In this document: positions 35,543 to 37,882 of the stretch, in pieces
Layout: the number at the start of each line of letters is the position of its first letter
How positions within the stretch are numbered: the first letter of the stretch is position 1
Source of the DNA: Candidatus Hydrogenedentota bacterium
Lineage (GTDB): Bacteria; Hydrogenedentota; Hydrogenedentia; Hydrogenedentales; CAILVY01
NCBI GenBank assembly: GCA_029565395.1
Contig: JAKQOG010000139.1
Span: forward strand, 1 to 64,000
Length of the DNA: 64,000 nt
Direction of reading: 5' to 3'
Program-made: the position numbers and the translations under genes
Notes under the pieces: generated by a model
Database searches by the model: none
What the model was told of the DNA's origin: nothing
The model's input: the letters and a program-made list of their open reading frames with translations, nothing else

Positions 35543-35661
35543 CCACGGCCAATCCTCCTATGTCGGATTGACCGTGCCACCCAGTAGACTACGAGTTAAT
35601 ACCCGATAAACCTTCTTCGCCGGGTGGCACGGTCAAGGTTGCGCAGCAAGCTTGGCCGTGG
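35543..35661. repeat. Nested inverted repeat
   Basis: Outer arms CCACGGCCAA (35543-35552) and TTGGCCGTGG (35652-35661) are perfect complements. Inside, a perfect 15-bp pair TTGACCGTGCCACCC (35568-35582) and GGGTGGCACGGTCAA (35622-35636) encloses a 39-nt loop. No T-run follows, and no gene lies in 35486-35749. It could be a REP/BIME-like dispersed repeat or a long-stem RNA. 'GACCGTGCC' and 'CACGGCCAA' also resemble each other, as in repeats made of degenerate copies. Confidence 0.6.
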
Positions 35662-35749: not shown

Positions 35750-36214
35750 TCAAGTTTCACGGCTGGCGATCGCCATGTTTTCCAGAAGAACGTCAATAGC
35801 GCGTTTGATGTTTCTGTTCCATACATAGAACCCAATAGATACTGCAAACAACACCACAATCGGGATAGGAATCCCCATTATTACATCCCTTGATGTAGAG
35901 TGGGGATCCATTAAAATCGCCACGATAATCCCCAAAGAAGCAAGGGTTGTCAGACAAATAATGAGCATCATCGGAATAACTGACTTGCCAATATCTGCGT
36001 GGATTGTCACATTGGAACCCTCAAGCGTAATGGAAGCCTTATTGATTCCTACAAGAGGGTTTCTGTTCTTCTGCCAGAGGAACGGATTCTCAACGTCGAA
36101 ACCGGATCGGTCCGAGCGACTAATGCGAAAGCTGTTCTGGGCAAAGACGGTTTTGCCCAATTCCAGAGCTTTGTTCACATTACTGCTCAACGCTACAGAT
36201 TTTTCGTAGATCAT
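35750..36214 (-). CDS. Paralogous two-helix membrane protein (copy 2)
   Basis: The 154-residue protein has GGGAGAAAGACG before the ATG. Residues 1-75 are soluble ('ALELGKTVFAQNSFRISRSD', 'ASITLEGSNVTIHADI'), followed by two transmembrane helices (about 80-102 and 115-135) and a short tail 'RAIDVLLENMAIAS'. The upstream neighbour has the same length, layout and tail ('KAIDTVMENAALIA'), so the two are diverged tandem paralogs. I do not recognise the family. It is the last gene of the SPFH/RHH operon. Confidence 0.7.
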   Translation of the reverse strand: MIYEKSVALSSNVNKALELGKTVFAQNSFRISRSDRSGFDVENPFLWQKNRNPLVGINKASITLEGSNVTIHADIGKSVIPMMLIICLTTLASLGIIVAILMDPHSTSRDVIMGIPIPIVVLFAVSIGFYVWNRNIKRAIDVLLENMAIASRET

Positions 36215-36241: not shown

Positions 36242-36706
36242 TCATTCATTTGCGATTAAGGCTGCATTTTCCATCACGGTATCTATAGCTTTTTCTGTTC
36301 TTCGCCGAATGGATGGCGCCCAAATCAGGCTGATGGGAATCCAAATTAGCAACTGTGGAATACAGGATGCCAACGCAACTGTCTTGGAGCCAGGGAGCGT
36401 GACGAGAAAAGTCGCCATTAAACCCAATATCAGTGCCGGAGGAAAGAAAAGAACAAAACGCTGCATGCGCCGCGCATAACGCAACTCAGCCTCCACATGG
36501 AGTTCTTTCCCTGAAATACTCACATACGCCTTAGAAACTCCGCGCAATGCATTTTGCCTCGTATTGTTCATACCCGGCCCGGTCACCTCAAACGATGTTG
36601 GGCTCAAACTTGTGAGTTTGAAACCCTGCTGCAGAAATTGTTCCCGCGCAGACTCCAATGCTTTTGCAGGATTTCCGTCAAGGTTAATCCAGCGTTCATA
36701 CTTCAT
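36242..36706 (-). CDS. Paralogous two-helix membrane protein (copy 1)
   Basis: The 154-residue protein has a soluble N-terminal part ('PAKALESAREQFLQQGFKLT', 'KAYVSISGKELHVEAEL'), two membrane helices (about 85-105 and 112-132, 'LFFPPALILGLMATFLV', 'IPQLLIWIPISLIWAP') and a charged tail 'RRRTEKAIDTVMENAALIAN'. It matches the next gene in length, order and tail, so they arose by duplication. The ATG lies 6 nt after the stop of the Arc-like gene, showing cotranscription. Its function is unknown. It may be a partner of the SPFH protein at the membrane, inferred from linkage only. Confidence 0.7.
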   Translation of the reverse strand: MKYERWINLDGNPAKALESAREQFLQQGFKLTSLSPTSFEVTGPGMNNTRQNALRGVSKAYVSISGKELHVEAELRYARRMQRFVLFFPPALILGLMATFLVTLPGSKTVALASCIPQLLIWIPISLIWAPSIRRRTEKAIDTVMENAALIANE

Positions 36707-36712
36707 GACACA

Positions 36713-36901
36713 TTAGTTTCCTTCTTCTGCTTCCACGTTCGTGCTTTCAGCGTCAACATCACGCCGCCGCTTGCGCACCGCCTCGCGCAGGAGGAATTCG
36801 ATTTGCGCATTGAGACTACGCAGGTCGTCCGCCGCCCAGCGGTTCAATTCCTCGGTCAATTCGGGCGGCAACCGCAGCAAGAATGGTTTCCGTTCCGCCA
36901 A
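36713..36901 (-). CDS. Arc-like ribbon-helix-helix DNA-binding protein
   Basis: The 62-residue protein starts at TTG 36901 with AAGGA 9 nt upstream, 12 nt after the SPFH stop. 'KPFLLRLPPELTEELNRWAA' is the beta-strand and first helix of a ribbon-helix-helix protein, and 'RSLNAQIEFLLREAVRKR' is the second helix with the usual 'LNAQIEFLLR' pattern of the Arc family. Such proteins bind short palindromes in tandem as dimers of dimers. Small Arc-like genes next to SPFH genes are, as far as I know, a recurring arrangement. The tandem TGATATCA sites in the operon promoter are good candidate operators for autoregulation. Confidence 0.85.
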   Translation of the reverse strand: MAERKPFLLRLPPELTEELNRWAADDLRSLNAQIEFLLREAVRKRRRDVDAESTNVEAEEGN

Positions 36902-36913
36902 AACATCTTGTCC

Positions 36914-37825
36914 TTATTGGTATAACGTGCCTGTATTCACGATGGGATGCGCGGACTCGTGCCCGCACAGCACCACCAGCAGATTGTTCACCATCGTTGC
37001 TTTATGCTCTTCGTCCAGTTGGATTTTTCCGGTGGCTTCGAGTTTGTCCAGCGCCATTTCGACCATGCCCACGGCGCCATCCACGATCCGGCTGCGCGCC
37101 GCGACAATCGCTTCCGCCTGTTGCCGCTGCAACATCGCCCCGGCGATTTCCTGGGCATACGCGAGATGGCTAAGGCGCGCTTCCTCAATGACCACGCCTG
37201 CCTTCAACACCTTCTCTTGTACTTCGCCCATCAATGCCTTCGACACCTCGTCCGTACTGCCGCGCAGTGAGATCACGTCGGTTTCGTGGTAGCTGTCGTA
37301 CGGATACGCCATCGCCAGATGCCGTAGCGCCGCTTCACTTTGCACTTGCACATACTGTTCATATCGATCCACGTCGAACAGCGCCTTGGCCGTATCATCC
37401 ACCCGCCAGACCACTACCGCCGCAATCTCAACCGGGTTGCCTCGAAGATCATTCACCTTGATCGTTTGACCGTTCAGGTTGCGCCGGCGCAACGACACCT
37501 TCTGCTTCGCATAAAACGGATTGGCCCACCAGAAACCGCTCGTCCGCACCGAACCGCAGTATTTCCCGAAAAGCACAAGTGCCGCCCCTTCATTTGGCTG
37601 CAACGTGAAAAAGCCCACCAGGCACACTATCCACACCAGTTCCACCAGTACCCCCGCCACCAGCAGCACCACACTAAACGCCACGCTCCCGTGCGTGTCC
37701 ACGGCAACCACAAGCATCCGAATCACCACATACACATACAAAGCCAGACCCAGCCCGGCCACGATGAGCATCGTCAAAGCCGCCCAGCCATTCACTACTT
37801 CCCGCCGTATTTCCCGCGTTTCCAT
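36914..37825 (-). CDS. SPFH/band 7 domain membrane protein
   Basis: The ATG at 37825 has GGAGGAAG upstream; the longer frame to 38074 runs through the promoter and is excluded. The 303-residue protein has two N-terminal transmembrane helices (about 14-40 and 50-75). A band 7 domain follows ('FTLQPNEGAALVLFGKY', 'SLRRRNLNGQTIKVNDLRGN', 'AAVVVWRVDDTAKALFDVD', 'VVIEEARLSHLAYAQEIAGA') and then a helical oligomerisation region ('QRQQAEAIVAARSRIVDGAV'). SPFH proteins form ring-like membrane scaffolds and control proteases or microdomains. It heads an operon with an Arc-like RHH protein and two paralogous membrane proteins. Confidence 0.92.
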   Translation of the reverse strand: METREIRREVVNGWAALTMLIVAGLGLALYVYVVIRMLVVAVDTHGSVAFSVVLLVAGVLVELVWIVCLVGFFTLQPNEGAALVLFGKYCGSVRTSGFWWANPFYAKQKVSLRRRNLNGQTIKVNDLRGNPVEIAAVVVWRVDDTAKALFDVDRYEQYVQVQSEAALRHLAMAYPYDSYHETDVISLRGSTDEVSKALMGEVQEKVLKAGVVIEEARLSHLAYAQEIAGAMLQRQQAEAIVAARSRIVDGAVGMVEMALDKLEATGKIQLDEEHKATMVNNLLVVLCGHESAHPIVNTGTLYQ

Positions 37826-37843
37826 AGCTATCTTCCTCCAGGT

Positions 37844-37873
37844 TGATATCATAATGATATCATAGAAATATCG
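37844..37873 (-). promoter_or_regulatory. Tandem palindromic operator over the SPFH operon promoter
   Basis: Two perfect 8-bp palindromes TGATATCA lie at 37844-37851 and 37855-37862, and a degenerate third copy (5 of 8 matches) lies at 37866-37873. All three are in an exact 11-bp register, about one helical turn. They cover the -10 region of the operon's promoter and most of the spacer. Tandem short palindromes one turn apart are what ribbon-helix-helix repressors bind, and one is encoded in the operon. Binding is an inference. Confidence 0.6.
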
Positions 37874-37882
37874 TGAGGTCAA
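37854..37882 (-). promoter_or_regulatory. Sigma70 promoter of the SPFH operon
   Basis: On the minus strand TTGACC (37882-37877) and TATCAT (37859-37854) are separated by 17 bp. They sit about 30 nt before the ATG at 37825, so the leader is short. The -10 element lies inside the tandem palindrome array. Confidence 0.5.

Follow-up and report, generated by a model that had tools for sequence, protein, structure and literature searches.

One of the nearest described counterparts of the system reported here is Arc of phage P22, the operator subsites of which lie about 11 bp apart. Arc and our protein share the ribbon-helix-helix (RHH) fold, for which Arc is the best fold match, as well as an RSVN helix cap, and the dimers that sit in adjacent grooves on one face of the DNA in Arc would do so here as well. 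The two differ in the residues that read the bases, which are Q9-N11-R13 in Arc and S/A/P/T6-L8-R10 in the present RHH family, and in their setting, which here is an array of three TGATATCA boxes, a chromosomal operon and an SPFH partner. AmrZ from Pseudomonas is an RHH protein that represses its own promoter and contacts bases through K18, V20 and R22 (PMC3325190). These residues fall at the positions of S6, L8 and R10 of our protein, but the AmrZ operator is made up of GGC half-sites and no SPFH gene is known to be involved. RelB from E. coli is an RHH autorepressor whose repression is modulated by the co-encoded RelE (PMC2812701). An RHH protein with a co-encoded partner is likewise found here, with modulation of this kind proposed; the partner in E. 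coli is an mRNA-cleaving toxin, whereas ours is a membrane SPFH protein, and the box sequence and spacing also differ. The function of the trifunctional PutA, again an RHH autorepressor, depends on its association with the membrane (PMC5293562). There the RHH domain is fused to an enzyme, whereas here the RHH and membrane proteins are encoded by separate genes and contact between them is suggested by joint loss.

Bacterial SPFH (flotillin/stomatin-like) proteins are widespread, but little is understood of the signals that they sense or of their own control. SPFH membrane proteins occur in conserved small operons of the SPFH1/2/5-NfeD and HflK/C-FtsH types (PMC2636767), in which the partner is NfeD or a protease and not, as in the present operon, a DNA-binding protein. 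The terms DNA-binding, repressor and CopG are all absent from the principal survey of SPFH operons in prokaryotes (PMC2636767), and the literature that we searched, which left out preprints and most subscription journals, contains no description of the present RHH protein, operator or tail. RHH autoregulators are already known, but none of the papers searched describes one that is paired with an SPFH scaffold and has the operator and tail seen here.

The operon and its proteins

The operon lies on the minus strand of the window, by which we mean the whole 64,000-nucleotide stretch that was analysed. Its first gene (36914..37825, ORF start 37825) encodes a 303-residue SPFH/Band 7 protein (Pfam PF01145, E = 1.3e-20). 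The AlphaFold2 model of this protein has a mean pLDDT of 87.7; two membrane-length helices, the SPFH domain and a long helix are followed by a disordered C-terminal segment. A fold search with the model returned stomatin, HflK/C and prohibitin chains with E values of 1e-13 to 1e-10, indicating a stomatin-like fold.

The RHH ORF (36713..36901) begins 12 nt past the SPFH ORF with a TTG start. The first-pass annotation had placed an RHH protein in this operon, and the 62-residue product, which we propose to be an autorepressor, does match PF07878 (RHH_5; E = 2.7e-6) at 27.5 bits against a cut-off of 26, as do all 50 of the relatives scanned. The monomer model, with a strand followed by two helices (residues 13-25 and 30-60), has an Arc-like fold; Arc chains ranked first in the fold search with a probability of 0.98, yet with E values above 0.05. 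Lys5 and Arg10 are invariant and Leu8 is near-invariant in the family alignment, and residue 6, Leu8 and Arg10 align in sequence with the base-reading positions of Arc and AmrZ.

Two small membrane ORFs without a family follow, and no toxin gene is found beside the RHH gene, the neighbours of which are these two ORFs and the SPFH gene. The second (35750..36214), which closes the operon, is a tandem relative of the first (36242..36706) with 27% identity, and among the loci compared both are present only in SPFH operons from Hydrogenedentota. The operon contains no protease gene, and a family profile search gave no match to NfeD among operon proteins P0002-P0004. We note an imperfect inverted repeat of 40 nt just past the operon (35543-35661), the arms of which are 75% complementary and separated by 39 nt.

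The box array and the promoter

Upstream of the SPFH gene three tandem boxes, read on the plus strand but assigned no strand as features, share a common 11-bp register. The putative operator box 1 (37844..37851), a perfect TGATATCA palindrome, is nearest to the SPFH gene and is a conserved box in an alignment of about 90 promoters. Box 2 (37855..37862) is again TGATATCA and is the centre and strongest box of the conserved array, while box 3 (37866..37873), recognized from the tandem search and the promoter alignment, is the degenerate copy AAATATCG. The two perfect 8-bp palindromes and the degenerate third copy that the first-pass annotation had described at 11-bp spacing are therefore confirmed, with starts at 37844, 37855 and 37866.

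Overlapping with the array is a minus-strand promoter, the best sigma-70-like match in the region, which combines a -35 hexamer TTGACC (37877..37882) and a -10 hexamer TATCAT (37854..37859) across a 17-bp spacer. This promoter has ten of 12 consensus matches and a TG ahead of the -10, and is followed by a Shine-Dalgarno sequence, GGAGG, at 37835..37839 (minus strand). The -10 hexamer lies mostly within the centre box, in agreement with the earlier placement of the palindromes over the -10 region of the SPFH operon.

A two-box tandem with up to three mismatches is expected 0.18 times by chance in a window of this composition, and the exact two-box tandem occurs once in the 7.55-Mb genome. These figures, together with the pitch test over orthologues and the scan of 68 genomes described below, rule out a chance repeat. 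A wider regulon was also considered and rejected, as two-box sites with two mismatches occur at only two other places in the genome, L087 and L088, and L088 falls within a coding ORF.

Conservation of the array

A search with the SPFH protein gave 80 orthologous loci, the nearest relatives of the query, each of which has an RHH gene downstream. Under the phylum names used in the records, these loci come from Hydrogenedentota, Planctomycetota, Verrucomicrobiota, Bacillota, Acidobacteriota, KSB1, Latescibacterota, Krumholzibacteriota, Elusimicrobiota and Bacteroidota. The 300 bp upstream of each SPFH gene were scored for three TGATATCA boxes against dinucleotide shuffles, and the score lies above the 99% shuffle level (p < 0.01) in 76 of 81 promoters. 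Among pitches of 8-25 only 11 exceeds the shuffles as a group, with a mean of 18.2 of 24 matches compared with at most 14.6 for the others. The motif built with leave-one-out contains three GATATC boxes, of which the centre box is the strongest and the flanking boxes are clear; at a single fixed pitch, the information per position rises to 1.5 bits in box 1 and to 1.4 bits in box 3. Conservation upstream of orthologous operons, on which the first-pass annotation had staked its proposal, is thus found in many phyla and always at the 11-bp pitch. The third copy that it reported is present at this spacing, but that three boxes are the rule had been missed.

The promoter elements around the array are less uniform. 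TTGAC is enriched, but a -35 at 16-18 bp is clear in only about a quarter of the arrays; in Hydrogenedentota and Planctomycetota 27% of the arrays have a TTGAC -35 at this distance with at least five of six matches. Many of loci L046-L082, from Verrucomicrobiota and others, have a TTGACA fixed at 14 bp from the TATCAT of the centre box, which is too close for a usual -35/-10 pair. The scarcity of clear -35s and the 14-bp TTGACA in Verrucomicrobia indicate that promoter geometry differs between phyla. At two loci, L011 (-576) and L061 (-597), the array lies upstream of an extra co-directional ORF that precedes the SPFH gene, and here the operator appears to have moved along with the promoter of the operon.

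Of 68 Hydrogenedentota genomes, 16 encode the SPFH protein, and exactly these 16 encode the RHH protein as well, with the two genes adjacent to one another or close together. Blind scanning of these 68 genomes with TGATATCATNNTGATA returned 12 places, 11 of which are promoters of SPFH-RHH operons; the twelfth falls within a coding ORF of another genome, and a reversed control pattern had no match in the 68 genomes. The other SPFH genes in the genome of the window have neither an RHH gene nor an array nearby. As the site is nearly confined to SPFH-RHH operons, the array has, from its sequence distribution, the character of a dedicated local operator rather than of a member of a large regulon.

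Linkage of the array to the RHH gene

More distant SPFH genes in annotated records of plasmids and phages provided a natural test set. RHH gene and array are both present in the records from Deinococcus NW-56 and QL22, Nonomuraea, Qipengyuania, Parabacteroides, Phocaeicola, Prevotella and Acetoanaerobium, whereas the records without an RHH gene score at background (D. radiophilus, a P. aeruginosa plasmid record, Teredinibacter, Pseudomonas Leaf58, three from Vibrio, and contigs from Enterococcus and Listeria). Where an RHH gene is present the array may still be weak or irregular, being borderline in Bosea and weak in Rhizobium. A Bacillota sample (L154-L202), comprising 300 genomes of which 68 have the SPFH gene, was left out of motif building; with the motif taken from the other loci, the array is recognized at all 47 loci with a linked RHH gene and at neither of the two without one.

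In the combined set the array is present at 141 of 145 RHH-linked loci and at none of 12 SPFH loci without RHH. Many of the loci are kin, so that Fisher tests on them overstate independence. The array lies within 420 bp in 139 cases and farther upstream in L011 and L061. The four RHH-linked loci that lack it include L120, where the contig ends, L096 and L097. The RHH gene of L029 is 2.6 kb downstream.

On the SPFH tree the loci without RHH require five changes, of which at least four are forced by well supported branches. These changes are most simply read as joint loss of RHH, array and tail on several occasions, with RHH gene and array disappearing as a pair from at least four lineages. No RHH gene of this kind was found elsewhere in the searched genomes of L164 and L200, or within the plasmid records of the two RHH-less Deinococcus.

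Two records deserve comment. The SPFH genes of L100 (NZ_CP151545.1, a Pseudomonas aeruginosa plasmid) and L106 (OR846655.1, an Enterococcus phage) are near-identical, and it is likely that DNA from the host chromosome or a misassembly is present in one or both records. No relatives were found in viral contigs.

The C-terminal tail of the SPFH protein

At the C-terminus of the RHH-linked SPFH proteins is P-[VI]-[VI]-N-x-G-[TS]-L-Y, followed by zero to two residues. In the window the tail is PIVNTGTLYQ, encoded by 36917..36946 on the minus strand. A slightly relaxed form of the pattern is present in 141 RHH-linked proteins and two more deviate only at the Asn. There are two apparent exceptions, L189 with a frameshift (the tail is present in the shifted frame) and L070 with an in-frame TAA; in both, an assembly error or real decay is possible. 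The Bosea tail (L096) is degenerate (NAGNVHG).

In all 12 SPFH proteins without an RHH gene the full motif is missing or cut. Examples of the endings are NSGR in D. radiophilus and D. proteolyticus, NAGTTRVD in L164, and NTGDVSS and NTGDMKDRK in the Enterococcus and Listeria contigs, while L200 ends in NSGSL, one residue early and cut before the Tyr. Together with the three-box rule, this apparent loss of the tail along with RHH gene and array is what the sequence comparisons add to the first-pass annotation. Residues 293-303 have pLDDT values below 50 in the AlphaFold2 model and are predicted to be disordered, and an end that is predicted to be disordered yet is highly conserved has the look of a short interaction motif.

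As the tail is lost whenever the RHH gene is lost, its distribution suggests that the membrane SPFH protein signals to its own repressor, and joint loss indicates that the tail probably contacts the RHH protein. We note that RHH, array and tail could also be lost as a single block with no contact between tail and repressor. The RHH protein might then autoregulate while the tail serves a protease, an adaptor or some other partner, disappearing with the regulation only indirectly, and we would put the chance of this a little below even. C-terminal motifs often recruit proteases or adaptors, and SPFH proteins elsewhere have known partners, FtsH for HflK/C and NfeD for QmcA. Set against this are the presence of the tail in practically all RHH-linked proteins across many phyla and its absence or truncation in all 12 proteins without RHH, in separate lineages and as finely as the stop at GSL in L200.

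Other explanations of the array

It is improbable, in our view, that the array is the operator of another chromosomal regulator and the RHH gene a passenger. The double use of the centre box as a -10 would be enough to conserve part of that box, but the flanking boxes are kept at exactly 11 bp, beyond the reach of any -10. Array and RHH gene are moreover jointly absent in several separate lineages, including within Deinococcus, the site is nearly confined to the SPFH-RHH operon in the 68 genomes, and the annotated neighbours on the array side vary between records.

A module resembling type II toxin-antitoxin systems, with an RHH antitoxin and an SPFH membrane toxin, is more improbable still. 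RHH antitoxins do autoregulate with their partner as co-repressor, as in RelBE (PMC2812701), and one of the RHH proteins is annotated as a HicB-family antitoxin. The partner is nevertheless an SPFH scaffold with a stomatin-like fold, which is no known toxin fold, and it persists without RHH in several genomes, which would be unexpected of a toxin.

Least probable of all is that the conserved sequence is only a core promoter (an extended -10, TGATATCAT) in which the repeats are incidental: TG-A-TATCAT is a good extended -10 and the TTGAC enrichment described above fits, but we reject this explanation because the flanking boxes keep their information content at a fixed 11-bp pitch, and the array is also absent from the promoters of SPFH genes without RHH.

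Proposed mechanism and significance

The most consistent interpretation of these comparisons, and one that we consider very likely, is that the Arc-like RHH protein has the array as its operator and acts as a dedicated autorepressor of the operon that encodes it, and that the SPFH tail probably contacts this protein. In the mechanism that we infer, one RHH dimer would bind each TGATATCA box and the dimers would insert their β-strand (Lys5, Leu8 and Arg10) into successive major grooves. As the boxes are 11 bp apart, all three would lie on one face of the helix and neighbouring dimers could cooperate in the way known from Arc. As most of the -10 lies within the centre box, bound protein would cover this element and exclude RNA polymerase, and the SPFH-RHH operon would repress itself.

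The SPFH protein has two predicted membrane-length helices and its C-terminus would be cytoplasmic, allowing the N-x-G-[TS]-L-Y tail at its extreme end to touch the repressor. The level of repression might then be set by how much of the membrane scaffold is present or by its state of assembly. The sign of the effect could be either of two. Capture of the RHH protein at the membrane by the tail would lift repression in the manner of PutA, whereas co-loading by the tail would strengthen it, as RelE does on RelB. We prefer titration of the repressor to the membrane, but only slightly.

More tentatively, and as something that we would not yet call an even prospect, the operon may represent a widespread feedback circuit in which an SPFH scaffold reports its assembly or the state of the membrane to the DNA, its tail capturing or co-loading a dedicated Arc-like repressor. 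The array is a DNA pattern able to locate SPFH-RHH operons unaided. It marks an SPFH subfamily, spread over many phyla, in which a short motif of the protein comes and goes with what appear to be a dedicated repressor and a precise operator, and in which the idea that an SPFH scaffold has a transcriptional readout can be tested directly.
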